Below the pieces are notes generated by a model. The model searched no databases, had not been told where the DNA came from, and worked only from the letters and a program-made list of their open reading frames with translations. From Micromonospora carbonacea (lineage in GTDB: Bacteria; Actinomycetota; Actinomycetes; Mycobacteriales; Micromonosporaceae), in contig NZ_JACHMZ010000001.1 in the NCBI RefSeq assembly GCF_014205165.1, positions 2,502,501-2,566,500 on the forward strand: a DNA stretch of 64,000 nucleotides, read 5' to 3'. The translations under genes were made by a program, and so were the position numbers. This document shows positions 11,294 to 27,869 of the stretch, piece after piece. Each line of letters begins with the position of its first letter. The first letter of the stretch is position 1.

Positions 11294-13966
11294 ATGACCG
11301 CCGAGCCGGGGTGCGGGCCGCGCGGGATGCGGGTCGGTGGGCGGGTCGCGCCACTCGGCGTGCCCGGCACGGCACCCCACCTGTCGTGGTCGGTGCCGGG
11401 CGGCGCGGAGATCGACCCGGATCGCGGGTTCCAGGTGTCCGTGGCGGCCTCCCGACAGGCGGTCGAGTCGGACAGGGACCTCGCCTGGGCCACCACCTGC
11501 GCCCGGCCCTGGACGGTGTACGCGGGCCCGCCCCTGGCCTCGCGCGACCGCCGCTACTGGCGGGTCACCGCCACGGACCGCTCCGGCCGCCCGGTCAGCA
11601 GCGCGACGGCGGCCTTCGAGGTCGGGCTGACCGACCCGGGGGACTGGTCGGCCACCTGGATCAGCGCACCCGTGCCGACCTACCGGCGGGAGAGCTGGGA
11701 CCCCTGCCCGTACCTGCGGCACGAGTTCGACGTCGACGAGGTGGGCGCCGCCCGGGTCTACGCGAGCGCGCTCGGGCTGTACCGGCTGTGGCTCAACGGC
11801 GTCGAGCTGACCGCCGACGCGCTGTACCGCCCCGGCTGGACCGACTACCGCACCCGGGTCTACCACCAGACCTTCGACTGCGGGGCGGCACTGCGTCCGG
11901 GCCGCAACACCCTGGCGGCCGTCCTGGCCAACGGCTGGTACGCCGGACGCCTCGGACTGCTGCGCGAGCCCGGCTTCTACGGCGACCGGCCGGCGCTGCT
12001 GGCCCAACTGGAGATCGACGGCAGGCCGGTCGCCTCGACCGGCGCCGGCTGGCGCGCCGGGCACGGGGCCCTACAGGCGACGGACCTGTTGCGCGGTGAG
12101 TCCCAGGACCTGCGGCAGGAGCCGCCGGGCTGGCGGCTGGCCGGCTTCGACGACGCCGGGTGGGCGCCGGCCGAACCCTTCGCCGGGGTCACGCCCCCGG
12201 TCGAACCGCAGCCCCACGACCCGATCACGACCTACCAGGCGCACACCGGCCGGCTCGTGCACGAACACGCCCGGGGCCCGGCCGTCTTCGACTTCGGGCA
12301 GAACCTGGTCGGTTGGACGAAGCTCACCACGAGATGCCTGCCGTCGGTCGAGTTGATCGTGCGCCACGGCGAGATCCTGACCCCCGAGCAGCTCGTCTAC
12401 CGCGACAACCTGCGCGGGGCCTTCCAGGAGGACCGCTTCGTGGTGCCCGACGCCGGGCCGCACCAGCTCGCCACGTCGTTCACCATGCACGGGTTCCGCT
12501 ACGCGGAGGTCTGGGGCCTGCCCAGCCAGCTGCCGCACCACAACTTCACCCTGCTGCCCGACACCTCGATCGAGGCGGTCTCCGTCACCGGACTGCCCAG
12601 CCCGGTCGGCGAGTTCTCCTGCTCCGACGAGCACCTGACCCGCCTCGCGGCCAACGTGGCGTGGACCATCCGTGACAACTTCCTCGAAGTGGCCACCGAC
12701 TGTCCCCAGCGCGACGAACGCCTCGGCTGGCTGGGGGACGCGGGGGCGATCGCGCCGACCGCCGCGTACCACTTCGACGTGTCCGCCTTCCTGGCGAAGT
12801 TCGCCCGGGACGCGGCGGACACCCAGGGCCCCGACGGGGAGATCCGCAACTACGCCCCGGCGATCCCGCCCGCCAGCATGCGGCCCGGGGCGCCCGGCTG
12901 GTCCGACGGCTTCGTCCGCCTCGTCCACCTGCTCGTGCAGCGGTACGGGGACCTGCCGACCGCCGAGCGGCTGTTCGCGTCGATGGTCCGCTTCCTCGAC
13001 CACGTCGACCGGGCCAACCCGGCCGGGCTGCGGGTCAACGAGGTCGGGGCCGACTTCGGTGACTGGCTGTCGCTGCCGGAACGCGACGGCCTGGAGCTGC
13101 ACCCGGGCTACGCCTACACCGGCGCCTACTCGACCACCCCGACCGCCATCGTCGACACCGCCCACAGCTACCGCTCCTTCGTCCAGCTCGCCCAGATCGC
13201 GGCCTGGCTGGGCAGGGACCGGGAGGCGGCCCGGCTGGCGGACCGGGCGGCGGAGATCCGTGCCGCGTACCGTGCCGCGTTCCCGCTCGCGACCGGCGGC
13301 GTCGAGGACGCGACCCAGGCCGCGTACGCGCAGGCGGTCGGATACGGGCTGCTCACCGGCGCCGAGGCCCAGGAGGCGGCGGACCGGTTGCGCGCGGCCA
13401 TCGAACGGGTCGGCCACGTCACCACCGGCATCCACGGCGTGGAGCACGTCCTGCCCGTGCTCTGCGCGCACGGGCACGCGGACTTCGCGCTCGAACTCCT
13501 GCTGCGCAGGCAGATGCCGAGCTGGCTGTACATGGTCGACCAGGGCGCGACCACGATCTGGGAGAAGTGGGACGGCATCCGCCCCGACGGCACCCTCGCC
13601 ACGGCCGAGATGAACTCCTTCAACCACTGCGCGCTCGGTGCCGTGGGCCGGTTCCTGTTCGAGCACGTCGCCGGCATCGACGCCACCGAGACCACCTGGA
13701 CCGGGGAGGTCACGGTGCGGGCCGCGTACTCCGCCGCGCTCGGCTGGGCCCGCGCCGCCTACGAGAGCCCGGCGGGCCCGATCGGCAGCTCGTGGCGCTG
13801 GGTGGGCGACGTGGTCGAGCACGAGCTGCGGATCCCCGCGACCGCGTACGCCACCGTCCGGGCACCGGCCGGCGCCCGGCTCGTCGCGGCCGGCCAAGGC
13901 GGCGCCGAGCTGCGGCTCGGCCCCGGCCGGCACACCGTCGCCGTGCACGGGCTGGTCGCGCCGTGA
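11294..13966 (+). CDS. GH78 alpha-L-rhamnosidase, intracellular
   Basis: The 890-residue enzyme belongs to the bacterial GH78 type that hydrolyses terminal alpha-L-rhamnose from glycosides. The order of domains is N-terminal beta-sandwiches (residues about 1-330), an (alpha/alpha)6 barrel with the acid motif TDCPQRDERLGWLGDAG, and the second catalytic region GATTIWEKWDGIRPDG carrying the base Glu, then a C-terminal beta-sandwich. No signal peptide is present, so it works in the cytoplasm on imported rhamnosides. I chose ATG 11294; the ribosome site is weak, and ATG 11328 is an alternative. Its stop overlaps the start of the first permease gene, so it leads the transporter operon, controlled by the operator at 11171. 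Confidence 0.92.
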   Translation: MTAEPGCGPRGMRVGGRVAPLGVPGTAPHLSWSVPGGAEIDPDRGFQVSVAASRQAVESDRDLAWATTCARPWTVYAGPPLASRDRRYWRVTATDRSGRPVSSATAAFEVGLTDPGDWSATWISAPVPTYRRESWDPCPYLRHEFDVDEVGAARVYASALGLYRLWLNGVELTADALYRPGWTDYRTRVYHQTFDCGAALRPGRNTLAAVLANGWYAGRLGLLREPGFYGDRPALLAQLEIDGRPVASTGAGWRAGHGALQATDLLRGESQDLRQEPPGWRLAGFDDAGWAPAEPFAGVTPPVEPQPHDPITTYQAHTGRLVHEHARGPAVFDFGQNLVGWTKLTTRCLPSVELIVRHGEILTPEQLVYRDNLRGAFQEDRFVVPDAGPHQLATSFTMHGFRYAEVWGLPSQLPHHNFTLLPDTSIEAVSVTGLPSPVGEFSCSDEHLTRLAANVAWTIRDNFLEVATDCPQRDERLGWLGDAGAIAPTAAYHFDVSAFLAKFARDAADTQGPDGEIRNYAPAIPPASMRPGAPGWSDGFVRLVHLLVQRYGDLPTAERLFASMVRFLDHVDRANPAGLRVNEVGADFGDWLSLPERDGLELHPGYAYTGAYSTTPTAIVDTAHSYRSFVQLAQIAAWLGRDREAARLADRAAEIRAAYRAAFPLATGGVEDATQAAYAQAVGYGLLTGAEAQEAADRLRAAIERVGHVTTGIHGVEHVLPVLCAHGHADFALELLLRRQMPSWLYMVDQGATTIWEKWDGIRPDGTLATAEMNSFNHCALGAVGRFLFEHVAGIDATETTWTGEVTVRAAYSAALGWARAAYESPAGPIGSSWRWVGDVVEHELRIPATAYATVRAPAGARLVAAGQGGAELRLGPGRHTVAVHGLVAP

Positions 13967-14943
13967 CCCCCGGGTGGCCGCTGGCCCGCACCGTGCTGCT
14001 GAAGCTCGTCCGGCTCGCGGCGGTGCTGTTCGTGGTGTCGCTGCTCTGCTTCCTCAGCCTCAGCCTGCTGCCCGGAGACCCTGCCCAGGCGATCCTCGGC
14101 GAGTCCGCGTCGCCGCAGGCGGTGGCCGCGCTGCACGAGCAGCTCGGGCTGGACCGGCCGTTCCTGGAACGCTTCCTCGGCTGGCTCGGCAACGCGGTGC
14201 AGGGTGACCTCGGCCGGTCCTACGCGACCAACCAGACGGTCGCCCAGATCATCGCCGAGCGGGCCCCGGTCACGATCGAGCTGATCGTGCTCAGCCAGCT
14301 CATCGCGATCGCCGCCGCGATCCCCGCCGCCGTGGCGGCCGCCGCCCGCCGCGGCTCGGCCGTCGACCGGGGGATGAGCCTGTGGGTCTTCACCGTCCTG
14401 TCGACGCCCAACTTCGTCGTCGGATTCGTCCTGATCTGGGTGTTCGCGGTCCAGCTCGGGCTCTACCCGGCCAACGGTTACGTCCCGGTCAGCGCGGGGA
14501 TCGGCCAGCACCTCGGCTCCCTGCTGCTGCCCTCGCTCACGCTGGCCGCCGCACCGTTCGCGCTCTACCAGCGCGTGCTGCGCGCCGACCTGGTCGAGAC
14601 GTACGGCCAGGAGTTCATGCAGGTCGCCCGGGCCAAGGGCATCTCGCCGCTCCGCGCCGCCATGCGGCACGCCTTCCGGCCGAGCCTGCTCAACCTCACC
14701 ACCTCCGTCGGCGTCACCGTGGGAGTGCTGATCGGCTCGGACGTGATCGTGGAGACCCTGTTCAGCCTGCCCGGGCTCGGCGCCGAACTCGCCCACTCGG
14801 TCAGCGCCCGCGACTACGCGGAGGTGCAGGGCCTGGTGCTGGTGATCGCCGCCGCGTTCGTGCTGATCAACGCGGCGGTCGACCTGATCTACGGGCTGAT
14901 CGACCCGCGGCTGCGGGCGCGAAGCAAGGCGGTGACCCGATGA
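13963..14943 (+). CDS. ABC transporter permease, DppB type
   Basis: This 326-residue integral membrane protein starts at GTG 13963, overlapping the rhamnosidase stop. It is a DppB/OppB-like permease with about six helices, an N-terminal helix followed by the periplasmic segment LLPGDPAQAILGESASP, and the EAA loop QVARAKGISPLRAAMRHAFRP that contacts the ATPases. It forms a dimer with the permease encoded next. Peptide/nickel-type importers also carry oligosaccharides in many bacteria, and coupling to GH78 suggests a rhamnoside cargo. Confidence 0.93.
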   Translation: MTPGWPLARTVLLKLVRLAAVLFVVSLLCFLSLSLLPGDPAQAILGESASPQAVAALHEQLGLDRPFLERFLGWLGNAVQGDLGRSYATNQTVAQIIAERAPVTIELIVLSQLIAIAAAIPAAVAAAARRGSAVDRGMSLWVFTVLSTPNFVVGFVLIWVFAVQLGLYPANGYVPVSAGIGQHLGSLLLPSLTLAAAPFALYQRVLRADLVETYGQEFMQVARAKGISPLRAAMRHAFRPSLLNLTTSVGVTVGVLIGSDVIVETLFSLPGLGAELAHSVSARDYAEVQGLVLVIAAAFVLINAAVDLIYGLIDPRLRARSKAVTR

Positions 14944-15830
14944 GTCTCGACGTCGCACCCACGGCACCGGCCACCGCCGCCCCGGCCACGGCGAAGACCC
15001 CCGCGCGGTCGGGCCGGCGGTGGCGGGTGACCGACCTGCTGTCCATGGCCTGGCTGGTGCTGCTGGTCCTGTCGATGCTGCTGCTGCCGACCGTGCTCGG
15101 CCTCGACGACCAGAAGATGGCCGCTGCCGACCGGTTGAGCGGGCCGTCCGCCGCGCACCTGCTCGGCACGGACAACTACGGGCGCGATCTGCTCGCCCGG
15201 GCGCTGTCCGGGGCGCGGGTCTCCCTGTTCATCGGCTTCGGGTCGGTCGCCGCCGCCGCGCTCGTCGGGGTGCCGCTGGGCATGCTGGCGGGTTACCTGC
15301 GCGGCCGGTTCGACGCGGTCGTCTCGTTCGTGGTGGACGTGATCCTGGCCTTCCCGGGCCTCATCCTCGCCCTCGCCCTGGCGTCGTTCCTCGGCGCCTC
15401 GATCACCAACGTGCTGATCGCGATCACCGTGCCGATGACACCGGTGTTCGTCCGGCTGGCCAAGGCGCAGACCCTGGCGGTGGCCGGCCGCGAGTACGTG
15501 GAGGCCAGCCTGGTGATCGGCACCCCGGCCCGGTCCATCCTCTGGCGGGACGTGCTGCCGAACATCCGCACCGCCGTGCTGTCGTACGCGCTGGTCAGCA
15601 TCGGCACCGCGATCCTCATCGAGGGCGGTCTGAGCTTTCTGGGCCTGGGCGTGCCCTCGCCTCAACCCTCGTGGGGAAGCATGATCAATCTTGGCCGGTC
15701 CTTCATCGCGAACGACCCGTTGCTGATCGTGGTGCCGGCGGTGTTCATGCTGCTGACGATCCTCAGCCTGAACCTGCTCGCCGACCGGTTCCTGTCCGGG
15801 GCGGACGCCGTGACGGGCGGTGTGCGATGA
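14940..15830 (+). CDS. ABC transporter permease, DppC type
   Basis: The 296-residue partner permease starts at ATG 14940 (4-base overlap). An Ala/Pro-rich cytoplasmic N-terminus precedes about six helices. The DppC hallmark HLLGTDNYGRDLLARALSGARVSL and the EAA loop EYVEASLVIGTPARSILWRD are present, and the tail ends GGLSFLGLGVPSPQPSWGSM as in the family. It forms the heteromeric channel with the preceding permease. Confidence 0.93.
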   Translation: MSLDVAPTAPATAAPATAKTPARSGRRWRVTDLLSMAWLVLLVLSMLLLPTVLGLDDQKMAAADRLSGPSAAHLLGTDNYGRDLLARALSGARVSLFIGFGSVAAAALVGVPLGMLAGYLRGRFDAVVSFVVDVILAFPGLILALALASFLGASITNVLIAITVPMTPVFVRLAKAQTLAVAGREYVEASLVIGTPARSILWRDVLPNIRTAVLSYALVSIGTAILIEGGLSFLGLGVPSPQPSWGSMINLGRSFIANDPLLIVVPAVFMLLTILSLNLLADRFLSGADAVTGGVR

Positions 15831-16858
15831 CCGGGGACGCCCTGCTGAGCATCCGTGACCTCGTGGTGGAGTTCCCGACCCCGGCCGGGCCGGTGCGCGC
15901 CGTCGACCGGGTCAGCCTCGACCTCGGCTTCGGCGAGCGGCTGGGGATCGTCGGTGAGTCCGGCTCGGGCAAGAGCGTCCTGGCGCGTACCGCGATGGGC
16001 CTCACCCGCACCAGGGCGGCCCGGGTCACCGGCCAGGTCCGGCTCGCCGGCCACGCCGTGCTCGACCTGAGCGAGCGCCGCCGCCGCGCCCTGTGGGGCC
16101 GGGAGGTCGCCATGGTGTTCCAGGATCCGCTCAGCGCCCTGCACCCCATCACCCCGATCGGGGAGCAGATCGCCGAGGCGGTGCGACGCGATCCCCGGGT
16201 GACCCGCCGGCAGGCCGCCACCCGGGCCGTCGAACTGCTCGAAACGGTGGGCATCCCGTTGGCGGCGCAGCGGGCCCGGTCCCGGGCCCACGAGCTGTCC
16301 GGTGGGATGCGGCAGCGGGTGGCGATCGCCATGGCCGTCGCCGGTCGACCCAAGCTGATCTTCGCGGACGAGCCCACGACCGCCCTGGACGTCACCGTGC
16401 AGGCCCGCATCCTCGACCTGTTCGACGCCCTGTGCCGGGAGTTCGGCATCGGGCTGGTCATGGTGAGCCACGACCTGGGCGTGGTGGGCCGGCACACCGA
16501 CCGGGTGGCGGTGATGTACGCCGGCCGGATCGCCGAGCGCGGTCCCGTGGCCGACGTCTTCGCCCGCCCCGGCATGCGCTACACCAGCGCCCTCATGGCC
16601 GCGATCCCGCGGGCGGACGTGGCGCGGCAGGTCCTGCCCAGGCCGATTCCGGGGCTGCCGCCGAACCTGCTGGACCCGCCGCCCGGCTGCCGGTTCGCGC
16701 CCCGCTGCGGCTTCGCGTCCGACCGGTGCCGCACGGCGCAGCCGCCGATGACGGCGCGTGCGGCGGGGGCCGGGCACGAGTTCGCCTGCTGGCACCCCGG
16801 CGAACCGGCGGTCGACGCGGCGGTCGCGCCGCGCCAGGACAGGGAGGTGACGGAATGA
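15827..16858 (+). CDS. ABC transporter ATPase, DppD type
   Basis: The 343-residue ATPase starts at ATG 15827 (overlap of 4). Walker A GESGSGKSVLARTAMG, Q-loop MVFQDPLSAL, signature LSGGMRQRVAIAMA, Walker B LIFADEPTTALD and the switch His in VSHDLGVV are intact. The C-terminal oligopeptide-transporter extension contains the Cys-rich segment PPGCRFAPRCGFASDRC, typical of DppD/OppD. It energises import together with the next gene. Confidence 0.95.
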   Translation: MTGDALLSIRDLVVEFPTPAGPVRAVDRVSLDLGFGERLGIVGESGSGKSVLARTAMGLTRTRAARVTGQVRLAGHAVLDLSERRRRALWGREVAMVFQDPLSALHPITPIGEQIAEAVRRDPRVTRRQAATRAVELLETVGIPLAAQRARSRAHELSGGMRQRVAIAMAVAGRPKLIFADEPTTALDVTVQARILDLFDALCREFGIGLVMVSHDLGVVGRHTDRVAVMYAGRIAERGPVADVFARPGMRYTSALMAAIPRADVARQVLPRPIPGLPPNLLDPPPGCRFAPRCGFASDRCRTAQPPMTARAAGAGHEFACWHPGEPAVDAAVAPRQDREVTE

Positions 16859-17847
16859 CCGCCGAGCGAAGCGCCCCGGTGTTCGAACTCAGGGACGGCT
16901 CGGTCCGCTACGGCACCGGCCCGGTGGAGGCCGTCTCGCAGGTCTCGGTGCAACTGCACCGGGGCGAGATCCTCGGCCTGGTGGGCGAGTCCGGCTGCGG
17001 CAAGTCCACCACCGCCCGGGCCATGCTGGGCCTCGTCCCGCTCAGCGGCGGCGCCCTGCTCCTGCACGGCGAGCCGGTGCGGCGGCACGACCGCCGGCTG
17101 CGCAGGTCCGTGCAGGCGATCTTCCAGAACCCGGCGGCGTCGTTCAACCCGAAGCGGTCCCTGCTCGACTCGGTCGCCGAGCCGTTGCGGGTGCACGGGC
17201 ACGGCACCCCCGCCGAGCGGCGTCGGCGTGCCCTCGCCGAACTGGACCGGGTGGGCATCACCGAACAACTGGCCCACCGCCGGCCCCGGGAGGTCTCCGG
17301 CGGCCAGTGCCAGCGCGCGGCGATCGCCCGCGCGACCATCCTGCGCCCCGAGATCCTCGTCTGCGACGAGCCGGTGTCCGCGCTGGACGTCTCGATCCAG
17401 GCCCAGATCCTGGAACTGCTGGCCGAGCTGCGCGCCGAGCAGGGGCTGGCCATGCTGTTCATCTCGCACGACCTGGGCGTCGTCGCGTCGCTGTGCGACC
17501 GCACGGCGGTGATGTACGCCGGCCGGGTGGTGGAACAGGGCGGCGCCCTCGACATCGCGCACGACCCGCGCCACCCCTACTCCGTCATGTTGCAGGACTC
17601 CGTGCCCTCCCTTGACCTGGCCGCCGCCCGGGCGCCCCGGGTCCAGCCCACCCCCGGCGCCGAGGACGTCGACGGCCGCCAGCTCGCCGGCTGCCGGTTC
17701 GCCACGCTGTGCCCGTCGGTGACCACCGCCTGCACCACGTCGTCGCCTCCGCTGCGGCAGGTCGCGCCGCGCCACGAGGTGGCCTGCGTCCATCCCTTCC
17801 CGTCGACCACCCCGCGTGTCGCGGCGCAGCCGTCCAGCACGGTCTGA
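16855..17847 (+). CDS. ABC transporter ATPase, DppF type
   Basis: The 330-residue second ATPase overlaps the first by 4 bases. Walker A GESGCGKSTTARAMLG, Q-loop IFQNPAASFNP, signature VSGGQCQRAAIARA, Walker B ILVCDEPVSALD and switch ISHDLGVV are all present. The C-terminal segment CRFATLCPSVTTAC is the family Cys motif. Gene order GH78-B-C-D-F-binding protein is unusual in that the binding protein is last. Confidence 0.95.
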   Translation: MTAERSAPVFELRDGSVRYGTGPVEAVSQVSVQLHRGEILGLVGESGCGKSTTARAMLGLVPLSGGALLLHGEPVRRHDRRLRRSVQAIFQNPAASFNPKRSLLDSVAEPLRVHGHGTPAERRRRALAELDRVGITEQLAHRRPREVSGGQCQRAAIARATILRPEILVCDEPVSALDVSIQAQILELLAELRAEQGLAMLFISHDLGVVASLCDRTAVMYAGRVVEQGGALDIAHDPRHPYSVMLQDSVPSLDLAAARAPRVQPTPGAEDVDGRQLAGCRFATLCPSVTTACTTSSPPLRQVAPRHEVACVHPFPSTTPRVAAQPSSTV

Positions 17848-17926
17848 CCCCGCCTCCGGGCTGCCCGGCCGGCTCGCCGCGACACGGTTCCACCACCCCC
17901 GAACCCGTCATCCGAAAGGCCCCGAC

Positions 17927-19519
17927 ATGCCTTTTCCCCCAGCCCGCCGCCGCTTCGGCCGGGCGACAGCCCTGCTGCTGACCCCCCTGTTGGCGGTGGT
18001 CCTGACCAGTTGCACGACGAAGGCCGGCACCGGCGACACCGGTGGCGACACCGCGCCCCGGGCCGGCGGGACGCTGACGGTCGCCCTGGCGGTCGAGGTG
18101 ACGACCCTCGACCCCAGCAAGGGATCCGCCAACGCGATGGCGCTGGTCGGCTCGTCGATCTACGACACCCTCATGGTCGTTCCCAAGCTCGGCGACCAGC
18201 CCCAGCCCAATCTCGCCAAGTCGCTGACCGCGAGCCCGGACAAGTTGACCTGGACGATGACCCTGCCCACCGGGGTCCAGTTCAGCGACGGCACGCCCTT
18301 CAACGCCGAGGCGGTGAAGTTCAACCTGGAGCGCGGCATGGCCAAGGGCTCCACGGCCGCGGCGCTGCTGTCGTCGGTCAAGTCGGTGGAGGCCCCCGAC
18401 GAGACCACCGTGCTGCTGCGCCTGAAGGAACCGTTCGCCAGCCTGCCGTACGCCTTCGCCTACGACGGCTCCGGCACCGCGGGCTACGTCGCCTCGCCCA
18501 CCGCCCTCAAGCAGTACGGCGACGACTACACGGCCCACGCGGCCGGCGTCGGACCGTTCAAGCTGAAGTCCTGGTCGCCCGGCAAGCCGGTCGAGCTGGT
18601 GCGTAACCCGAACTACTGGAACAAGGACCGGCAGGTCTACCTGGACCAGGTCGTCATCAAGACGATCGCCGACCCGCAGAGCGCCTACCAGGCGTTGCAG
18701 GCGGGTGACATCGACCTGATGTCGACGGTCAACCCCACCCTGATGCAGACGGCCAAGGCCGACAGCCAGGTCAACTTCGTCCAGGGGGTGGGCGGCGACC
18801 AGGACGCCGTCATCCTCAACCTGACCCAGCCGCCGTTCGACGACCTGCGGCTGCGGCAGGCGGTGTCCAAGGCGCTCAACCGGCAGGAGATCGTCGACCT
18901 GACCACCGAGGGCTTCGGCAAGCCGGCGGTCAGCCTGTTCCCCGAGGGGAACGCCTTCCACGGCACGGCCGCCGACCCGGGCTTCGACCTGGCCGGAGCC
19001 CAGGCGCTGGTCAAGGAGTACGAGACGGCGACGGGCCGGAAGCCGAGCTTCTCCTACACGTGCAACACCATCCGCCCGGCCACGGACGTCATCGTCGCGC
19101 AGCTCAAGGCGGCCGGCTTCGACGTCAAGCTCGACGCGCTGGACTACTCGGCGTGGGTGGCCGCCTTCTTCGGCAAGAAGTACCAGGCGATCTGCTGGAC
19201 CATGGCCGGCTTCCTGACGCCGGACCTGCTGCCCTACCGGTTCCTGCACTCCGGCGGCGACCTGAACACCGGCGGGTTCACCGACGCGACGTTCGACGCC
19301 CGGGTGACCGCGGCGCGCGCCGAGTCCGACCCGGCCAAGCGCAAGCAACTGTGGAACGAGGCGGACACCGTGCTGACCACCCAACTGCCCTGGGTGTGGA
19401 CGACCAGCGCGCCGATCGGCTTCATCTGGTCGAAGCGGATGCACAGCGCCGACTACGACGAGCCGAGCCGGCTGCGCTACAGCGTGCCCACCTTCGCCAA
19501 CGCCTGGGTCACGAACTGA
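17927..19519 (+). CDS. Solute-binding lipoprotein of the ABC importer (family 5)
   Basis: The 530-residue protein has a lipoprotein signal (residues 1-28) with lipobox VLTSC and lipidated Cys29, then the family-5 extracellular solute-binding fold (GGTLTVALAVEVTTLDPSKG; later WTMTLPTGVQFSDGTPF and VELVRNPNYWNKD). It starts at ATG 17927 behind GAAAGG, 79 bp after the ATPase. It would capture the substrate outside the membrane and deliver it to the permeases. The genomic context argues for a rhamnose-containing glycoside rather than a peptide. Confidence 0.93.
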   Translation: MPFPPARRRFGRATALLLTPLLAVVLTSCTTKAGTGDTGGDTAPRAGGTLTVALAVEVTTLDPSKGSANAMALVGSSIYDTLMVVPKLGDQPQPNLAKSLTASPDKLTWTMTLPTGVQFSDGTPFNAEAVKFNLERGMAKGSTAAALLSSVKSVEAPDETTVLLRLKEPFASLPYAFAYDGSGTAGYVASPTALKQYGDDYTAHAAGVGPFKLKSWSPGKPVELVRNPNYWNKDRQVYLDQVVIKTIADPQSAYQALQAGDIDLMSTVNPTLMQTAKADSQVNFVQGVGGDQDAVILNLTQPPFDDLRLRQAVSKALNRQEIVDLTTEGFGKPAVSLFPEGNAFHGTAADPGFDLAGAQALVKEYETATGRKPSFSYTCNTIRPATDVIVAQLKAAGFDVKLDALDYSAWVAAFFGKKYQAICWTMAGFLTPDLLPYRFLHSGGDLNTGGFTDATFDARVTAARAESDPAKRKQLWNEADTVLTTQLPWVWTTSAPIGFIWSKRMHSADYDEPSRLRYSVPTFANAWVTN

Positions 19520-20363: not shown

Positions 20364-20411
20364 CACCGCCCGCCCCGCGGGGCGCATCGACTAGTGATTC
20401 GAGGAACGACA

Positions 20412-21341
20412 GTGACCACCAACATCGTCATCACCGACACCAACCTGGGGGACGGCTCGATCGAACGAGCCGTGCTGGCCGGCGACTTCGCGGTCAGCCG
20501 GTTCGACGCCAGGACCGAGGACGCCGTCCTCGACGTCGCCGGCGACGCCGACGGGCTGCTGGTGCAGTGGGCGCCCATCACCGACCGGGTGCTGGCCGGG
20601 CTGCCCCGGCTGCGTGCCGTCGTGCGCTACGGCATCGGCCTGGACAACATCGACCTGGCCGCCGCCGCCCGGCGGGGGGTCGAGGTGCGCAACGTCGACG
20701 ACTACTGCCTGGCGGAGGTCGCCGACCACAGCATGGCGGCCGTCTACGCGCACAACCGCCGGCTCACCACGGCCAGCCGGTCGTGCGCCGACGTGGGGTG
20801 GACCACCGCGGGCATCGCCCCCGCGCTGCCGCCCGCGCAGGACCCCGTCGGCGTCGCCGGCTTCGGCCGCATCGGCCGCGAGGTCGCCTCGCGGGCCCTC
20901 GCCCTGGGCTTCCCGGTGCACGTGTGGGACCCGTTCGTCCCCGACGTGCCCGCCGGCGTCACGGCGCACCCGACGCTGGTCGAGCTCGCCGCCGCGGTCA
21001 ACCACCTCACCCTGCACGTGCCCGCGACGCCACAGACGCGCGGGATCGTCGACCGCGCGGTGCTCGACGCGCTCGGGGCCGACGGCCACCTGGTGAACAC
21101 GGCCCGGGGCGCCCTCGTGGTCGAGACCGACCTGCTGGCGGCGCTCGACGCCGGCACGCTGGGCTTCGCCTCGCTCGACGTGCTGGCCAGCGAGCCACCC
21201 GAGCAGACGTCCGCGAAGCTGGCCGGGCACCCGCGGGCCCTGGTGACCCCCCACCTCGCGTACCTGTCGACGGTGTCGCTGCCGCAGTTGCAGCGGCGGG
21301 CCGCCGAGATCCTGCGCGACCTGCTGACCACGGCGGGCTGA
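20412..21341 (+). CDS. D-isomer-specific 2-hydroxyacid dehydrogenase family protein
   Basis: The 309-residue protein starts at GTG 20412 behind GAGG. The NAD-binding loop VGVAGFGRIGREVASRAL and the Arg, Glu and His of the catalytic triad (NTARGALV, LASEPPE, TPHLAYLS) are present, so it should be active. It is closest in look to C-terminal-binding-protein/phosphoglycerate-dehydrogenase-like members. Its task in a deoxysugar pathway is not obvious: reduction of a 2-oxo acid or oxidation of a 2-hydroxy acid such as an aldonate or lactate are possible. Confidence 0.88.
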   Translation: MTTNIVITDTNLGDGSIERAVLAGDFAVSRFDARTEDAVLDVAGDADGLLVQWAPITDRVLAGLPRLRAVVRYGIGLDNIDLAAAARRGVEVRNVDDYCLAEVADHSMAAVYAHNRRLTTASRSCADVGWTTAGIAPALPPAQDPVGVAGFGRIGREVASRALALGFPVHVWDPFVPDVPAGVTAHPTLVELAAAVNHLTLHVPATPQTRGIVDRAVLDALGADGHLVNTARGALVVETDLLAALDAGTLGFASLDVLASEPPEQTSAKLAGHPRALVTPHLAYLSTVSLPQLQRRAAEILRDLLTTAG

Positions 21342-21344
21342 CCG

Positions 21345-22277
21345 GTGCGCGCTCTCGTCTTCACCCGGCCGAACACGGTGGAACTGCTCGACGTCGCGCC
21401 GCCCGTGCCGTCCGACGGTGAGGTCGTCGTCGCCGTCCGCGCCGTCGGCATCTGCGGCAGCGAACTGCACGGCATCGGCGACTCCCACTTCCGCAGCCCG
21501 CCGCTGATCATGGGACACGAGTTCTCCGGCACCACGAGCGACGGGCGTCGGGTCACGGTGAACCCGCTGCTCAGCTGCGGCACCTGCGACCTGTGCGGCC
21601 TCGGCCGCGAGCAGTTGTGCCGCCGCCGGCAGATCCTCGGCATCCACCGGCCCGGCGCGTTCGCCGAGCACGTGGCGGTGCCCGAGCACGCGCTGCACCC
21701 GCTGGCGCCCACGATGTCGTTCGAGACGGCCGCGATGATCGAACCGCTGGCGAACGCCGTGCACGCCCTGAACCTGGCCCGCCCGGCCGAGGGCGCGCGG
21801 ATCGCGGTCCTGGGCGCCGGCACGATCGGCCTGGTCTCGCTGCTCGTCGCCCGCCAGCACTCGGACGAGGTGACGGTCTGCGACCTGTCCGAGGCCCGCC
21901 TGGCGGTGGCCGAGCGCCTCGGCGCGGCGGCCGTCGGCCCGACCCTGACCGGCGAGTTCGACGTGATCATCGACGCGGTGGGCGCCGCGGCCACCCACCG
22001 GCTGTCGGTGCAGCGCCTGCGTCCGGGCGGCACGGCCGTCTGGGTGGGCCTGCTCAGCGGCGACGCCGGCTTCGACGGACAGCAGATCGTCCGGGAGGAG
22101 AAGCACGTCGTGGGCTCGTACTGCTACACGGGCGCCGAGTTCGCCCACGCGGTCGCCCTCGCGGAGACGGTCGCGCTGGACTGGACCTCGCCGTTCGACC
22201 TCGCCGACGGGGCCACCATCTTCACCGAGCTGATGCGGGGCCGCCAGGACGTGGTCAAGGCGGTGCTGCGGCCGTGA
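21345..22277 (+). CDS. Zinc-dependent medium-chain dehydrogenase
   Basis: The 310-residue protein starts at GTG 21345, 3 bases after the preceding stop. Catalytic zinc ligands are in VGICGSELHG and MGHEFSG; the structural zinc site is the four-Cys cluster from CGTCDLCG through REQLC. The Rossmann motif is VLGAGTIGLVSLLVA. It belongs to the sorbitol/threonine dehydrogenase branch and is shorter than the usual 340-350 residues. A role in oxidising a sugar or aldonate hydroxyl is likely; it could supply the second oxidation in the pathway. Confidence 0.88.
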   Translation: MRALVFTRPNTVELLDVAPPVPSDGEVVVAVRAVGICGSELHGIGDSHFRSPPLIMGHEFSGTTSDGRRVTVNPLLSCGTCDLCGLGREQLCRRRQILGIHRPGAFAEHVAVPEHALHPLAPTMSFETAAMIEPLANAVHALNLARPAEGARIAVLGAGTIGLVSLLVARQHSDEVTVCDLSEARLAVAERLGAAAVGPTLTGEFDVIIDAVGAAATHRLSVQRLRPGGTAVWVGLLSGDAGFDGQQIVREEKHVVGSYCYTGAEFAHAVALAETVALDWTSPFDLADGATIFTELMRGRQDVVKAVLRP

Positions 22278-22327
22278 CGGCGCGGCGACGACCCCTGCCG
22301 GCCGACCCCAAGGAAAGGAGGAACGCC

Positions 22328-23110
22328 ATGTACGGCGTGCGGCTACTTCATCTCGGTGACGGTGACGTGCCGGGGCCCGAGGTGTACTGGATGTCGGACT
22401 GGGACCGCTGGTACCGGCTCGCCTTCCAGGCGGTCCTGATCCAGGGCCCGGGCGTCAACGCGCTGGTGAGCACCGGCCCGGCCCGGGACCTGGGCCCGAT
22501 GAACGCGCGGTGGGCCACCTTCCTCGGCGAGCGGGCCGCCCTGCGGCGGGCCCCCGGGCAGTGGCTGCCCGACCAGTTGGCCGCCCATGGCCTCGCCCCC
22601 GAGGACATCACGCACGTCCTGCTGACCCCGTTGCAGCTCTACACCACGTCGAACGTGCCGTTCTTCCCCCGTGCGCAGATCTGCCTGACCGAGCGGGGGT
22701 GGACCCACTTCCACCGGACGACGAAGCACCCGCACGACGACCGCTGGTCCTCCCTGTCGCCGGAGGTGCTCCACCACCTCACCCACGAGGCGTGGGACCG
22801 GGTCCGGCTGCTCGCCGACGAGGACGAGGTCGTGCCCGGCATCCGTACCTGGTGGACCGGGTCGCACCACCGCGCCTCGATGGCCGTCGAGATCGACAGC
22901 ACCGTCGGCGTCGTCACCGTCACCGACGCCTACTTCACCCGCCGCAACCTGGACTCCGACCACCCGATCGGGATCTGCGAGAACATCTACGAGGCCATGG
23001 CGGCGCACGAGCGGGTGCGACGGGTCGCCGACGTGCCGCTGACCCTCTACGACGCCGACCAGCTCACCGCGTACCCGGACGGGCTGGTCGCCGAGCCGCC
23101 CGGGCGGTGA
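22328..23110 (+). CDS. Metallo-beta-lactamase-fold protein without the HxHxDH site
   Basis: The 260-residue protein has a strong ribosome site (GGAAAGGAGG) before ATG 22328. Its arrangement is that of lactonase-type MBL hydrolases: an edge strand VNALVSTGPARDLG, then DITHVLLTPLQLYTTSN, a distal GSHHRASMAVEI and VTVTDAYFTRRNL. In a true enzyme the second segment would read THxHxDH; here all four ligands are replaced (P, Q, Y, T). It may be a non-metal or altered-metal lactonase or a binding protein. In its position an aldonolactonase would be expected. It ends the plus-strand arm, before a terminator shared with the convergent FAH gene. Confidence 0.72.
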   Translation: MYGVRLLHLGDGDVPGPEVYWMSDWDRWYRLAFQAVLIQGPGVNALVSTGPARDLGPMNARWATFLGERAALRRAPGQWLPDQLAAHGLAPEDITHVLLTPLQLYTTSNVPFFPRAQICLTERGWTHFHRTTKHPHDDRWSSLSPEVLHHLTHEAWDRVRLLADEDEVVPGIRTWWTGSHHRASMAVEIDSTVGVVTVTDAYFTRRNLDSDHPIGICENIYEAMAAHERVRRVADVPLTLYDADQLTAYPDGLVAEPPGR

Positions 23111-23125
23111 CGTGCCCGGGGTGCG

Positions 23126-23160
23126 CTTCCCGCTGTCCGGCCCGGCCGGACAGCGGGAAG
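23126..23160. terminator. Perfect 16-bp hairpin between convergent genes
   Basis: Bases 23126-23141 and 23145-23160 are exact inverted repeats (CTTCCCGCTGTCCGGC) around a CCG loop. There is no U tract, as is common in actinomycetes. It lies between two converging genes and should work in both directions. Confidence 0.8.
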
Positions 23161-23168
23161 CGGCGGGG

Positions 23169-24026
23169 TCAGCCGGTCGCCCGGTGCCCGACGACGGTCT
23201 GCTCCTGCCGGCCCAGGCCCTCGATCTCCAGGGCCACGACGTCGCCGACCCTGAGATAGGGGAAGCGGCCGGACAGCGCGACGCCCTCCGGGGTGCCGGT
23301 GTTGACGACGTCGCCCGGCATCAGCAGCATGTGCTGGCTGAGGTGGACGATCAGCTCGGGCACCGAGAAGATCATGTCGGCGGTGCTGGAGTCCTGCCGG
23401 GGCTCACCGTTGACCCAGGACCGCAGCCGCAGCCGGCCGGGGTCGAGCTCGCTCGCCGGGCGCAGCACCGGCCCGAGCGGGTTGAACGTCTCCGCGCACT
23501 TGCCCTTGGACCACTGGCCGCCGGAGACCTCGATCTGGAAGGCGCGCTCGGACAGGTCGTTGGCGAGCGCGTAGCCGGCCACGTAGTCCAGTGCGTCGGC
23601 CGGGTCGGTGAGGTGGCGCGGCGTGCGCTTCATGACGACGGCGAGCTCGACCTCCCAGTCGGTCTTCGTCGACCCGAGCGGCAGGACGACGTCGTCGTCC
23701 GGGCCGACCACGCAGCCGGGGTGCTTGAGGAAGACCACCGGGTGCTCCGGCGGTGCGGCGCCGGACTCCGTGGCGTGGGCCGCGTAGTTCATTCCGATGC
23801 ACACCACGGCGGGCGGGCGCGCGATCGGTGCGCCGATCCGCTGCCCGGCCGTGTCGACCGGGTCGAGCGTGCCGGCGGCGAGGGCGGCGGCCACCCGCTC
23901 GATGCCGTCGGTCTCGAAGAAGGAACCGTCCAGGTCGGCGGTCAGCCCGGTGAGGTCGTACTCCCGGCCCTCGTGGCGCACGGCCGGGCGTTCCTTGCCG
24001 GGAGCGCCGAAGCGGAACAACTCCAT
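23169..24026 (-). CDS. Fumarylacetoacetate-hydrolase-family hydrolase (2,4-diketo-3-deoxy acid hydrolase type)
   Basis: The 285-residue protein has the FAH C-terminal domain: entry motif CIGMNYAAHATESG, metal-binding TKTDWEVELAVVMKR, the ALANDLSERAFQ segment and the end MPGDVVNTGTPEGV. Relatives near this length include LRA6-type hydrolases that split 2,4-diketo-3-deoxy-L-rhamnonate (or -fuconate) into pyruvate and L-lactate. That function is supported here by the GH78 gene, the dehydrogenases and lutABC in the same locus. It begins 1 base after the iclR stop and is co-transcribed with it. Confidence 0.85.
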   Translation of the reverse strand: MELFRFGAPGKERPAVRHEGREYDLTGLTADLDGSFFETDGIERVAAALAAGTLDPVDTAGQRIGAPIARPPAVVCIGMNYAAHATESGAAPPEHPVVFLKHPGCVVGPDDDVVLPLGSTKTDWEVELAVVMKRTPRHLTDPADALDYVAGYALANDLSERAFQIEVSGGQWSKGKCAETFNPLGPVLRPASELDPGRLRLRSWVNGEPRQDSSTADMIFSVPELIVHLSQHMLLMPGDVVNTGTPEGVALSGRFPYLRVGDVVALEIEGLGRQEQTVVGHRATG

Positions 24027-24027
24027 G

Positions 24028-24816
24028 TCAGTCCCTTCGTGTCGTGGGTGCGGCGCCGTCCCGGTAGCCCAGGCGCAGCGAGAGCTGGTGGGCCGTGGAG
24101 CAGAGCGTGTCGATGGTGCGCCGGATGAGTTCGGGTGTCTTGCGGACCTCGGGAATGGAGACGCTGATGGCGGCCCGGGTGGTGGCCCGCAGGCCGTTCA
24201 GCGGGGCGGCGACGCAGAAGACGCCCGGGGTGTACTCGCAGTTGTCGATCGCGTACCCGTGCGTGCGGGCCTGCCGGACGGCGGCGACGAGCTCGGGGAG
24301 CGAGGTGACGGTCTGCGGCGTGTACCGGACGAACTCCGTGTCGGCGAAGCGGTCCCGCAGGTCGTCCTCGTCGAGCTGGCTGAGCAGCGCCTTGCCGATG
24401 CCGGTCGCGTACGCCGGCAGGCGCACGCCGACCCGGGAGGCGAGGCGCAGGTGGTGATCCGGATCGACCTTGGCGATGTAGACGTTGTCGGTGCCGTCGA
24501 GGGTGGCGAGCTGGACCGTCTCGTTCAGCGTGTCCCGGAGGGTCTCCATGTACGGCAGCGCGACCTTCTCCAGGTCGTTGATCGCGACGTAGCTCTGGCC
24601 GGCCTGCCACAGCCGGATGCCGATGCGGAACCGGCGGGTGTCCGGGTCCTGTTCGAGGAAGCCCCGGGCCGTCATCGTCATGAGCAGCACGTAGGTGCTG
24701 CTCTTCGGGAACTCCAGGCGGCGCTGGACCTCGGTCAGGGTCAACCCGTCACGGTGCTCGGTCAGCAGGTCGAGGATCGCCAGCGTGCGGTCTGCCGACT
24801 TGACGAGAGTGCTCAT
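24028..24816 (-). CDS. IclR-family transcriptional regulator
   Basis: The 262-residue protein starts at ATG 24816. An N-terminal winged helix (ADRTLAILDLLTEHRDGLTL, then LEFPKSSTYVLLMTM) is followed by the IclR effector domain (VRLPAYATGIGKALLSQLDED; YAIDNCEYTPGVFCVAAPL). It is divergent from lutABC across a shared region with a GTTCA-N6-TGAAC palindrome, and is joined to the FAH gene. Its probable role is repression of the rhamnoside and lactate operons until a pathway intermediate binds. Confidence 0.93.
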   Translation of the reverse strand: MSTLVKSADRTLAILDLLTEHRDGLTLTEVQRRLEFPKSSTYVLLMTMTARGFLEQDPDTRRFRIGIRLWQAGQSYVAINDLEKVALPYMETLRDTLNETVQLATLDGTDNVYIAKVDPDHHLRLASRVGVRLPAYATGIGKALLSQLDEDDLRDRFADTEFVRYTPQTVTSLPELVAAVRQARTHGYAIDNCEYTPGVFCVAAPLNGLRATTRAAISVSIPEVRKTPELIRRTIDTLCSTAHQLSLRLGYRDGAAPTTRRD

Positions 24817-24828
24817 AGGAACGGCCCT

Positions 24829-24868
24829 GTTCATGTAGATGAACCGTGGTTTTGATACTGGTACCATA
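24829..24868. promoter_or_regulatory. IclR operator between iclR and lutA
   Basis: GTTCATGTAGATGAAC (24829-24844) differs at one position from the palindrome before the rhamnosidase at 11171-11186. Close behind is a second, smaller palindrome centred on TGGTACCA (24859-24866). An apparent ATG at 24839 lies inside the operator and is not the lutA start. The site is 13 bp upstream of the iclR start codon, so autoregulation and control of lutABC are both likely. Confidence 0.7.
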
Positions 24869-24925
24869 CAACCTCGTCGCCGCCCGTGGGTCACCGGGTC
24901 GGGCGGCACGCCGAAAGGACATCGA

Positions 24926-25759
24926 TTGGGCCAGGATGCCGGGCCTTCCGCCCGTACCGCCGCGTCAGCTCCGCCCCCGGTCCGGGTGGCGCTGTTCGTC
25001 ACGTGCCTCGTGGACGGGCTGGTGCCCCGCGTCGGCGCCGCGACGGTCGCGGTGCTCGAACGGCTGGGCCTCGACGTGGCCGTGCCCCGGCGACAGACCT
25101 GCTGCGGTCAGCTCCACGTGAACTCCGGCTACCCCGACCAGGCGCTGGCCCTGGTCCGCAACCACGTCGCGGCGTTCGCCGACGCCGAGGCGATCGTCGT
25201 GGCCAGCGGCTCGTGCGTGGCGGCCATCCGGCACCAGCACGTCGAACTCGCCCGGGCGGCCGGCGACGAGGGGCTGGCCGCCGCGGCGGCCGCCGTCGCG
25301 GCACGCACCTACGAGCTTTCCGAGTTCCTCGTCGACGTGTGCGGCGTGCTGGACGTCGGTGCGTGGTTCCCCCACCGGGTGACGCTGCACCAGGCGTGCC
25401 ACGCGCTACGCCTGCTGCGCACCGGCGACCGGGCGCGACGACTGCTGGACCGGGTCGAGGGCATCGAACTCGTCGACCTGCCCGACGCCGACTCCTGCTG
25501 CGGCTTCGGTGGCACCTTCGCGCTGAAGAACGCGTCGGTGTCCGCCGCCATGCTCGCCGACAAGCTGCGGGCGGTCGACGCCACCGGGGCGACCGTCGTC
25601 ACCGCAGGGGACGCCTCGTGCCTCACGCACCTCGGCGGCGGGCTCTCCCGCGCGGCGGCGGGGGCCCGCACCGTGCACCTGGCCGAGATCCTGGCCGCGA
25701 CCCGAGACCGACCGTGGGCACCGCCCGGTGCTCCGCCGCACCCGAGGAGACGACCGTGA
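24926..25759 (+). CDS. lutA: Lactate utilisation protein A (CCG-domain Fe-S protein)
   Basis: The 277-residue product is the LutA-type subunit of the L-lactate oxidation complex, with two CCG domains: TCCGQLHVNSGYPDQA (first) and QACHALRLL plus DSCCGFGGTFALKN (second), which bind an iron-sulfur cluster or pass electrons. I chose TTG 24926 because AAAGGA lies 6 bases before it; the upstream ATG falls in the operator. It is first in lutABC, overlapping lutB by GTGA. With LutB and LutC it would oxidise L-lactate to pyruvate. Confidence 0.88.
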   Translation: MGQDAGPSARTAASAPPPVRVALFVTCLVDGLVPRVGAATVAVLERLGLDVAVPRRQTCCGQLHVNSGYPDQALALVRNHVAAFADAEAIVVASGSCVAAIRHQHVELARAAGDEGLAAAAAAVAARTYELSEFLVDVCGVLDVGAWFPHRVTLHQACHALRLLRTGDRARRLLDRVEGIELVDLPDADSCCGFGGTFALKNASVSAAMLADKLRAVDATGATVVTAGDASCLTHLGGGLSRAAAGARTVHLAEILAATRDRPWAPPGAPPHPRRRP

Positions 25760-27204
25760 CGGTGTTCCTGGGCCTGCCCACCGCGTCGCCCGGCGTCGGC
25801 AACCTGCACGCCGCGACGCCGTTCCCGACCGCCGCCGCCGAGGCGCTGCGCGACGACCAGCTGCGGCGCAACCTCTCGCACGCCACCCGCACCATCCGTG
25901 GCCGGCGACTGCAGACGGTCGCCGAGCTCGACGACTGGGAGCAGCTCCGGGCCGCCGGAGCCGCCATCAAGGACGACGTGCTCGACCACCTCGACCGCTA
26001 CCTGCTCCAGCTCGAACAGGCGGTGACCGCCCGGGGCGGCACGGTGCACTGGGCCCGGGACGCGGCGGAGGCCAACGCCATCGTCGTCGACCTGGTCCGG
26101 CAGGCCGGCGCGACCGAAGTGGTCAAGGTCAAGTCGATGGTCACCGCCGAGATCGGCCTCAACGAGGCGCTGGCCCGGGGCGGCATCGGCGCCGTCGAGA
26201 CCGACCTGGCCGAGCTGATCGTGCAACTCGGCCGGGACCACCCCAGTCACATCCTCGTGCCCGCCATCCACCGCAACCGGCGGGAGATCCGCGACATCTT
26301 CCGGCGCGAGATGGTCGGCGTGGACCCCGCGCTCGGCGACGAGCCGGCCGAGCTGGTCGAGGCGGCACGGGCCCACCTGCGGCAGCGGTTCCTCACGGCG
26401 CGGGTGGCCGTCTCCGGGGCGAACTTCGCGATCGCCGAGACGGGCACCCTGGCGGTCGTCGAGTCCGAGGGCAACGGGCGGATGTGCCTCACCCTGCCCC
26501 GCACCCTGATCACCGTCATGGGGATCGAGAAGGTCCTGCCGAGCTGGCGCGACCTCGAGGTGTTCCTGCAACTGCTGCCCCGCTCGTCGACCGCCGAGCG
26601 GATGAACCCGTACACGTCGATGTGGACCGGCGCGGTGGAGGGGCAGGAGTTCCACCTCGTGCTGCTCGACAACGGGCGCACCGCGACCCTGGCCGACCCG
26701 GCCGGTCGGGCGGCCCTGCGGTGCATCCGGTGCTCGGCGTGCCTGAACGTCTGCCCGGTCTACGAGCGCACGGGCGGACACGCCTACGGCTCGGTCTATC
26801 CCGGGCCGATCGGCGCGGTGCTCACCCCGCAACTGACCGGGGTGGCCGACCACCCCCACCTGCCGTTCGCGTCGACCCTGTGCGGGGCCTGCTTCGACGC
26901 GTGCCCGGTGGCGATCGACATCCCGCGCATGCTGGTGCACCTGCGGGCGCAGGCGGTGGCGGCGGGCGCGCGGCAGCGGCGGCTGCCGACGTCCGAGGCC
27001 GCCGCGATGTCGGTGCTCGGCTGGCTCATGTCCAGCCCGGGGCGCTGGTCCGCCGCCCTACGGGCGCTGTGGCTGGGGCGGGTCCTGGGCCGGCGCACCG
27101 GCTGGATCCGCCGGCTGCCGCCGCCGATGTCGGCGTGGACGAGGTCGCGGGACGCGCCCCGCCCGCCGCGCCGCCCGTTCCGGGCCCGGGGCAGGCGGCG
27201 GTGA
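25756..27204 (+). CDS. lutB: Lactate utilisation protein B (Fe-S oxidoreductase)
   Basis: The 482-residue LutB has an LUD domain (VKVKSMVTAEIGLNEAL; AIAETGTLAVVESEGNGRM; ITVMGIEKVLPSWRDL) followed by a ferredoxin-like module with CIRCSACLNVCPVYE and CGACFDACPVAIDIP, coordinating two [4Fe-4S] clusters. Start is GTG 25756 in the overlap with lutA. The C-terminal region of about 90 residues after the second cluster is basic and poorly conserved. It is the central subunit of the cytosolic L-lactate-oxidising complex. Confidence 0.92.
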   Translation: MTVFLGLPTASPGVGNLHAATPFPTAAAEALRDDQLRRNLSHATRTIRGRRLQTVAELDDWEQLRAAGAAIKDDVLDHLDRYLLQLEQAVTARGGTVHWARDAAEANAIVVDLVRQAGATEVVKVKSMVTAEIGLNEALARGGIGAVETDLAELIVQLGRDHPSHILVPAIHRNRREIRDIFRREMVGVDPALGDEPAELVEAARAHLRQRFLTARVAVSGANFAIAETGTLAVVESEGNGRMCLTLPRTLITVMGIEKVLPSWRDLEVFLQLLPRSSTAERMNPYTSMWTGAVEGQEFHLVLLDNGRTATLADPAGRAALRCIRCSACLNVCPVYERTGGHAYGSVYPGPIGAVLTPQLTGVADHPHLPFASTLCGACFDACPVAIDIPRMLVHLRAQAVAAGARQRRLPTSEAAAMSVLGWLMSSPGRWSAALRALWLGRVLGRRTGWIRRLPPPMSAWTRSRDAPRPPRRPFRARGRRR

Positions 27205-27869
27205 GCCGCGACGGGTCCGCCGGCGGGACCGGACGCGACGCCGACGCCGCGCGGGCCGAGGTGCTGCGCCGGGTCCGGCTCGCCGTCGGGACGCAGCCGC
27301 CCGGCGTCGGGGTGTCCCGGGACTACCGGGGCGTCGGCGCGCGCCCCGCCGACGACCCGGTCGGGTTGTTCGTGGAGCGGCTGACCGACTACCGGGCGAG
27401 CGCGTACCGGTGCGGCGCGGACGAGGTCGGCGAGACGATCGCCGGCATCCTGGGCGAGCACGGCCGGACCCGGATCTGCGTCCCCCACGGCCTGCCCGCC
27501 CGGTGGACCGCGCCCGGTTGGCAGGTGGTCGGCGGCGACGCGCCACCGGACCCGGTCGCGCTCGACGCCTTCGACGGCGTGGTCTCCGGTTGCGCCCTGG
27601 CGATCGCGCTCACCGGCACGATCGTGCTCGACTCGGGGCCGGGCCAGGGCTGGCGCGCGGTCACCCTGGTTCCCGACTACCACCTGGTGGTGGTGCGTGC
27701 CGACCAGATCGTGCCGGCCGTGCCGGACGCGATCGCCCGACTGGACGCCACCCGGCCGATGACCTGGATCAGCGGGCCCAGTGCCACGAGCGACATCGAG
27801 TTCGACCGGGTCGAGGGGGTGCACGGTCCGCGCACCCTGGACGTGCTGGTGGTGGCCGAGGGCCGGTAG
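27201..27869 (+). CDS. lutC: Lactate utilisation protein C (LUD domain)
   Basis: The 222-residue LutC is an LUD-domain protein ending with the characteristic TWISGPSATSDIEFDRVEG. It starts at GTG 27201 overlapping lutB. Compared with the second copy at 54419, the segment around the conserved AETGTIVL reads ALTGTIVL, with Leu in place of Glu. It completes a three-gene operon that would process the L-lactate made by the FAH-family hydrolase. Confidence 0.9.
   Translation: MSRDGSAGGTGRDADAARAEVLRRVRLAVGTQPPGVGVSRDYRGVGARPADDPVGLFVERLTDYRASAYRCGADEVGETIAGILGEHGRTRICVPHGLPARWTAPGWQVVGGDAPPDPVALDAFDGVVSGCALAIALTGTIVLDSGPGQGWRAVTLVPDYHLVVVRADQIVPAVPDAIARLDATRPMTWISGPSATSDIEFDRVEGVHGPRTLDVLVVAEGR

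Follow-up and report, generated by a model that had tools for sequence, protein, structure and literature searches.

A recurring actinobacterial rhamnoside cassette with a lactonase-fold protein lacking the usual metal motif, and a candidate route from L-rhamnose to L-lactate

The non-phosphorylative breakdown of L-fucose, and in parallel that of L-rhamnose, runs through a 1-dehydrogenase, a lactonase, a dehydratase, a 4-dehydrogenase and a hydrolase, according to the accessible text of PMC11199699. Here we describe a locus of Micromonospora carbonacea that resembles these routes, on a stretch of 64,000 nucleotides (positions 2,502,501 to 2,566,500 of contig NZ_JACHMZ010000001.1; hereafter the window, GC content 74.6%) of a 7.53 Mb genome assembled as one contig. 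It encodes a GH78 α-L-rhamnosidase, an importer, a short-chain dehydrogenase (SDR), a D-2-hydroxyacid dehydrogenase (HADH), a zinc-type alcohol dehydrogenase (ADH), a metallo-β-lactamase-like (MBL) protein, a hydrolase of the fumarylacetoacetate hydrolase (FAH) family, an IclR-family regulator, LutABC and an acyl-CoA synthetase (Table 1). With the LRA route (LRA1-3, LRA5 and LRA6) and the L-fucose route (FucA-C, FucF and FucG) the locus shares the dehydrogenases, a lactonase-fold protein and an FAH-family protein that by homology would yield L-lactate, whereas it differs from both in having no L-rhamnonate dehydratase (RhmD) above the curated cut-off and in the addition of the HADH and the acyl-CoA synthetase. 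The fuconolactonase is a cog3618 amidohydrolase, as the reference list of PMC11199699 indicates, whereas the candidate lactonase of the window has another fold. RhmD loci of Actinocatenispora and other Micromonosporaceae are like the window in their MBL, SDR and ADH genes and have RhmD instead of HADH in the run. The RhaR regulons with RhaEW and lldD or lldEFG, proposed in 2013 for some Actinomycetales and Rhodobacterales, also join rhamnose catabolism to L-lactate oxidation; as the accessible part of PMC3870299 presents them they are phosphorylative and end by RhaEW, whereas the window has an FAH protein and an IclR regulator. The link between lactate and rhamnose is therefore not new by itself.

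We consider it rather probable that the locus is an IclR-controlled α-L-rhamnoside cassette whose enzymes would take L-rhamnose to L-lactate by a non-phosphorylative route. We infer the substrates and the order of steps as follows. A small rhamnoside would be taken up by the lipoprotein-dependent Opp-type importer, and the GH78 enzyme would release L-rhamnose from it in the cytosol. The SDR (or the zinc ADH) would oxidise C1 to give rhamnonolactone, which the MBL protein without metal motif would open to L-rhamnonate; the ADH or SDR together with the HADH would oxidise this further to a 2,4-diketo acid, to be split by the FAH protein into L-lactate and a C3 keto acid. An extra lutABC at the same operator would, in this genome, oxidise the L-lactate to pyruvate. 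Part of the route may be new, a dehydratase being absent and the lactonase-shaped protein lacking the usual metal site, and it is this protein, together with the apparent exchange of a dehydratase for an HADH, that we regard as the notable part. Neither an MBL-fold rhamnonolactonase nor a dehydratase-free rhamnose route was reported among the open PubMed Central literature matches listed, a scope that leaves subscription journals outside.

Every gene family named in the original prediction was recovered, by Pfam or, for the MBL protein, by NCBIfam and a structural model. Its limits for the locus held for these genes and fell short in ending at 27869, the acyl-CoA synthetase and three candidate operators having been overlooked. 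The genes from GH78 to MBL form one run on the plus strand (11294-23110), with FAH and IclR on the minus, lutABC on the plus and the synthetase on the minus strand. The GH78 protein scores 304.8 bits for the catalytic Bac_rhamnosid6H domain and 132, 63.1 and 34.7 bits for others, N- and C-terminal rhamnosidase domains included, all over the Pfam cut-offs. By eye, no signal peptide is visible at its N-terminus (start codon inferred), which together with the lipobox of the binding protein fits import followed by cytosolic cleavage.

The arrangement recurs. A scan of a species-genome collection for the MBL protein gave nine loci, seven of which (L006-L012) carry the cassette; L008 and L107 are one locus, L107 being the completed version. 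The gene order GH78-importer-binding protein-SDR-HADH-ADH-MBL is common to L007, L107, L010, L011 and L012, suggesting more than a chance association. L009 has the identical gene set with the importer relocated after FAH and IclR, and L006 is truncated by a contig end inside the SDR gene. FAH and IclR are present in six of the seven cassette loci, and in L107 the GH78 operon is accompanied by a divergent synthetase-iclR-FAH group. The distribution in actinobacteria is sporadic: at family level 10 of 354 genomes pass 1e-50 (own included, the nine others 54-62% identical), at phylum level two of 396 pass E 1e-40 (own and one 35% relative), and in the order-level scan for the MBL protein (298 genomes, 42 of them matching at E <= 0.001) the best non-own match reaches 64.9 bits and 29% identity. 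The rhamnoside cassette is real and recurring, and its members are probably co-regulated.

The evidence that points most strongly to rhamnose lies outside the window, in sister loci with RhmD. We read around the MBL gene in nine other Micromonosporaceae MBL genomes and in L014 and L131; eleven places were listed for the family, of which ten were fetched with wider flanks and the eleventh is the window itself. Seven loci (L121-L123, L126, L127, L129 and L130) combine MBL, SDR and zinc ADH genes with an RhmD gene recognised by a curated model, whose product scores 662-702 bits where intact (cut-off 393); in L129 it is divided between two overlapping fragments (347 and 338 bits). In L127 these genes form a single run, MBL-ADH-RhmD-FAH-SDR, with an FAH 66% identical to that of the window; five genes here face five steps of the known route, which leaves the MBL protein over as the lactonase. 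The sister loci have SDR and ADH proteins of different subfamilies, at 33-37% identity to those of the window, and no HADH occurs within their runs, an HADH-family gene (36%) lying about 4.5 kb from MBL on the other strand in L127. GH78 proteins (30-31% identical) are encoded near four of the seven, and IclR relatives (43-47%) in six. The GH78 gene and the RhmD of these sister loci, recognised by its curated model, thus support rhamnose as the sugar, as originally predicted.

The MBL protein itself matches nothing in Pfam, even at a threshold of E 1, and matches NCBIfam lactonase models weakly. Its predicted structure is confident (pLDDT 94.9) and closest to 4-pyridoxolactonase and acyl-homoserine-lactone lactonases. 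The model suggests that it has the MBL lactonase fold in common with AiiA, AiiB, GcL and 4-pyridoxolactonase, from which it differs in being 14-20% identical and without HxHxDH. There are 463 homologues at E <= 0.001, of which the best 120 were listed and examined: none of these 120 has a Pfam domain, and in all 120 (own entry included) [TS]P[LF]Q[LA]Y[TS] stands in place of HxHxDH, while more distant homologues may have the motif. An alignment of 36 sequences shows G178, H180, H181, R182, R139, D200, E218, E222 and Y241 to be invariant and H134, P135, H136 and D137 nearly so. Aligned with AiiB, the protein has lost the four ligands of the motif and kept one later His and one Asp, residues that we take to be ligands in AiiB. 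With the metal ligands of the motif lost, hydrolysis is not a given; judged by its model and its neighbours, the protein is most likely a candidate rhamnonolactonase. Two more distant settings of the family were also seen: in L014 (6841-10355, an actinobacterial metagenome-assembled genome) and in L131 (1682-4730, genome G592) the MBL homologue is paired with a DapA-type (aldolase-like) protein and not with FAH, and in L131 also with a non-RhmD enolase.

The best-scoring model for the FAH protein is NF053535 (2,4-didehydro-3-deoxy-L-rhamnonate hydrolase, 248.5 bits), compared with 160.6 bits for the top catechol-pathway model. Its best single-domain match in the Protein Data Bank (PDB) is the L-DKDRH entry 8gsr (184 bits), and the two-domain 1gtt sums to 192.9. 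We built a FastTree phylogeny of 26 sequences, including nine of the 120 homologues listed out of 7999, rooted on a HpaG domain and with the PDB rows as aligned stretches only. A single clade (0.996) unites the actinobacterial FAH proteins, including those of the window and of L127, and 8gsr stands next to it as a moderately supported sister (0.806), not within it. The clustering with catechol-pathway hydrolases that had been named beforehand as evidence to the contrary is not seen in this tree, and of the proposed equivalence to LRA6 there stands the nearness to the diketo-deoxyrhamnonate hydrolase model and to 8gsr (in a small tree), while identity with LRA6 is not proven. A homologue from Micromonospora oryzae is 97% identical; elsewhere in the M. 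carbonacea genome there are four further FAH-family matches besides a paralogue at 4.243 Mb.

The palindrome between iclR and lutA is near-identical to that upstream of GH78. A whole-genome scan found five exact GTTCA-N6-TGAAC sites, three of them within the locus; the remaining two, at 878337 and 4359315, have GC-rich spacers. Allowing one mismatch raises the count to 236, compared with 61 in a control read backwards that covers the one-mismatch count only, and the five exact sites alone were used. Exact operators also occur in the L006, L107, L108 (upstream of L007) and L009 stretches and, among the sister loci, in L121, L122, L123 and L126, with one mismatch in L129 and L130. The palindromes of the locus are of the GTTC type and, by comparison of sequences only, similar to group-1 IclR motifs such as that of NpdR, GTTCMRYATMRTGAWS, the group-1 comparison operator in the accessible part of PMC8222616. 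The three sites and the IclR protein, as the presumed operator binder, probably make up one local regulon.

Several observations weigh against the proposed cassette function. FAH is seen in one of the seven sister loci (L127) and not in the other six, and L127 has neither IclR nor operator in 19 kb. The exact operator is absent from the L010, L011 and L012 stretches, and FAH and IclR are both unseen in the 20.8 kb read for L010. The FAH score of the window lies below the NF053535 equivalog cut-off of 500. Lut genes were not found around L006, L007, L009-L012 and L107, in a search confined to stretches of 13-21 kb that took in the far side of GH78 for L007, L009 and L107 only; and the FAH adjoining the lut genes of Actinoplanes SE50 is 46-48% identical and outside the actinobacterial clade to which the window FAH belongs. 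The rhamnose scheme does not accommodate the acyl-CoA synthetase. Lastly, the locus encodes no dehydratase and the genome no RhmD over the cut-off (best NF011968 match 136.9 bits, cut-off 393), so that the pathway is not closed in the way first supposed. Of the HADH-type genomes one in nine has an RhmD over the cut-off (G682, on another contig, 421 bits).

This last figure compares with seven of ten MBL genomes without the HADH cassette and one of 14 control genomes. The HADH-type count excludes L013 (RhmD type, on the contig of L121) and L014 (DapA type) and adds SE50. The contrast has a Fisher p of 0.020, or 0.0055 if the split gene of G956 is counted, uncorrected for relatedness; it overstates independence because one genus (g309, G685 and G730 being taken as the same genome) supplies four of the ten non-HADH genomes and another (g333) supplies two. 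Such a nearly opposite distribution fits a replacement of L-rhamnonate dehydratase by HADH.

It is possible, if on the unlikely side, that the standard LRA route operates here with a dehydratase encoded outside the locus (an IlvD/Edd protein or an enolase-superfamily member other than RhmD), leaving HADH a side role. Candidates exist, in that the genome has 10 MR_MLE_C matches, including a FucD-like enolase (by eye) beside an amidohydrolase, an ADH and a KduD-like SDR at 4.213 Mb, and each of the eight other HADH-type genomes has 4 to 37; but none of these genes has an exact operator site, and RhmD over the cut-off is missing from eight of the nine HADH-type genomes. The single IlvD/Edd match of the genome is presumably IlvD itself, and UxaA-type matches are absent. 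S. blattellae has an IlvD/Edd-family gene about 4 kb beyond the cassette FAH, which speaks against a dehydratase-free reading there; but its neighbours, judged by eye, are another IclR-like gene and a PfkB-like one, an arrangement that resembles a separate sugar-acid cluster. The cluster at 4.213 Mb (L076, 5041-9382), in which the amidohydrolase looks by eye like a lactonase and the ADH is of the zinc type, may with the FAH paralogue at 4.243 Mb be a separate deoxysugar route, which is not proven.

A fully dehydratase-free form of the cassette pathway we hold to be doubtful. Here HADH would oxidise L-rhamnonate at C2 and ADH or SDR at C4, FAH would split the resulting 2,4-diketo-3-hydroxy acid into L-lactate and hydroxypyruvate, and the motif-less lactonase-fold protein would open the lactone. 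C2 of L-rhamnonate is R, the hand acted on by D-2-hydroxyacid dehydrogenases. All nine loci compared have the same Arg, Glu and His in HADH, which we take to be catalytic, and the same NAD-type Asp. Double oxidation by HADH and ADH or SDR is chemically possible, and HADH-family enzymes could also reduce the hydroxypyruvate to glycerate.

A lactate ending with lutABC as an accessory is plausible. LutB scores 441.5 bits against TIGR00273 (cut-off 444.8; the open reading frame scored had a long non-native N-terminus), with the CCG domains of LutA and the LUD domain of LutC beside it. A second lutABC lies at window positions 52216-55015, about 24 kb from the first (LutB 70%, LutA 65% and LutC 57% identical), which makes the copy at 24.9-27.9 kb an extra one. 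We regard it as unlikely that lutABC is a chance neighbour of the cassette with a general role in lactate use; this would agree with its not being found in the stretches read around the seven close relatives and with the presence of lutB (E <= 1e-80) in 44 of 61 genomes from the same genus, ours among them, but the genome already has another copy, and lutABC and iclR have one intergenic operator in common. Moreover, HADH, FAH, lutA, lutB and lutC are consecutive on one strand in Actinoplanes SE50 (G793, L144), and the opposite strand carries MBL, ADH-like and SDR genes beginning some 5.6 kb away (L124); the proteins have diverged, and this separate FAH/lutABC association supports L-lactate as the product. 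The predicted lactate ending gains from both the shared operator and the SE50 run. We rejected lutABC as a core member of the cassette, given the seven relatives, and retained it as accessory on the strength of SE50. Past the SE50 run, at 4193-6118 of L144, an FAH match (63% to that of L127) lies in or over an open reading frame that starts aldo-keto-reductase-like (by eye).

We think it quite improbable that the cassette is instead directed mainly at the aglycone or the acyl moiety of rhamnosides such as rhamnolipids or acylated glycosides, the synthetase activating the freed acid and SDR, ADH and FAH acting on that moiety: a synthetase gene does adjoin the cassette in our genome and in four others (L006 75%, L007 73%, L107 70% and L010 60% identical), with the operator upstream of it here and in L006 and an acyl-CoA dehydrogenase adjoining it in the window, but SDR, ADH and MBL recur with RhmD in seven sister loci where no synthetase orthologue was seen, and the genomes of L009, L011 and L012 have none at orthologue level (43%, none and 43%). 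The acyl-CoA dehydrogenase (Pfam) lies at 30296-31540 (+), and a similar-looking protein (by eye) is near the synthetase in L010 at 13427-14614 (-).

Table 1. Genes and candidate operator sites of the locus, in window coordinates.
Feature	Position	Strand	Basis or remark
Perfect palindrome GTTCATGTATATGAAC, candidate IclR operator	11171-11186		Upstream of GH78 operon
GH78 α-L-rhamnosidase	11294-13966	+	Pfam; start codon inferred; PDB 3w5m, 443 bits
Opp/Dpp-type permease	13966-14943	+	Pfam BPD_transp_1; start approximate
Opp/Dpp-type permease	14940-15830	+	Pfam BPD_transp_1; start approximate
Opp-type ATPase	15827-16858	+	Pfam ABC_tran and oligo_HPY
Opp-type ATPase	16855-17847	+	Pfam ABC_tran and oligo_HPY
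SBP_bac_5 solute-binding lipoprotein	17927-19519	+	Pfam; LTSC lipobox by eye
SDR dehydrogenase, candidate sugar 1-dehydrogenase	19566-20363	+	Pfam; Yx3K present
D-2-hydroxyacid dehydrogenase (HADH)	20412-21341	+	Pfam 2-Hacid_dh
Zinc-type alcohol dehydrogenase (ADH)	21345-22277	+	Pfam ADH_zinc; nearest PDB 8wwd, 177.6 bits
Lactonase-fold MBL protein, candidate rhamnonolactonase	22328-23110	+	Predicted fold; HxHxDH replaced by TPLQLYT
FAH-family hydrolase	23169-24026	-	Pfam FAA_hydrolase; nearest curated model below cut-off
IclR-family regulator	24028-24816	-	Pfam; start inferred
Candidate operator GTTCATGTAGATGAAC	24829-24844		Between iclR and lutA
lutA	24926-25759	+	Pfam CCG and LUD domains (lutABC); start inferred
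lutB	25756-27204	+	Pfam CCG and LUD domains (lutABC)
lutC	27201-27869	+	Pfam CCG and LUD domains (lutABC)
Acyl-CoA synthetase	27919-29499	-	PRK08162-like, below that model's cut-off
Candidate operator GTTCAAATATGTGAAC	29572-29587		Upstream of acyl-CoA synthetase

Four open reading frames on the minus strand across the importer have no Pfam matches and were set aside as shadow frames. Along 11189-29499 the GC content is 73.2% in the GH78-MBL run, 71.1% in FAH-IclR, 75.5% in lutABC and 74.8% in the synthetase, differences that hint at separate origins and do not demonstrate them. Genes for polysaccharide degradation lie nearby: a GH2 with a ricin-type lectin domain (33222-36431, +), a GH95 with CBM2 and a twin-arginine (TAT) signal match (55585-58428, -) and a GH43 (59179-60762, +). 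There is also a cobalamin riboswitch (38760-38970, +; Rfam RF00174, 83.6 bits).

If the proposed function is right, a lactonase-fold family without a Pfam domain and without the usual metal motif would gain a specific role and could serve as a marker of rhamnose catabolism, and the operator would delimit a small regulon. Should the dehydratase-free form of the pathway also prove true, actinobacteria would have a second way from a common deoxysugar to L-lactate, one that dispenses with the dehydratase characteristic of the known route.

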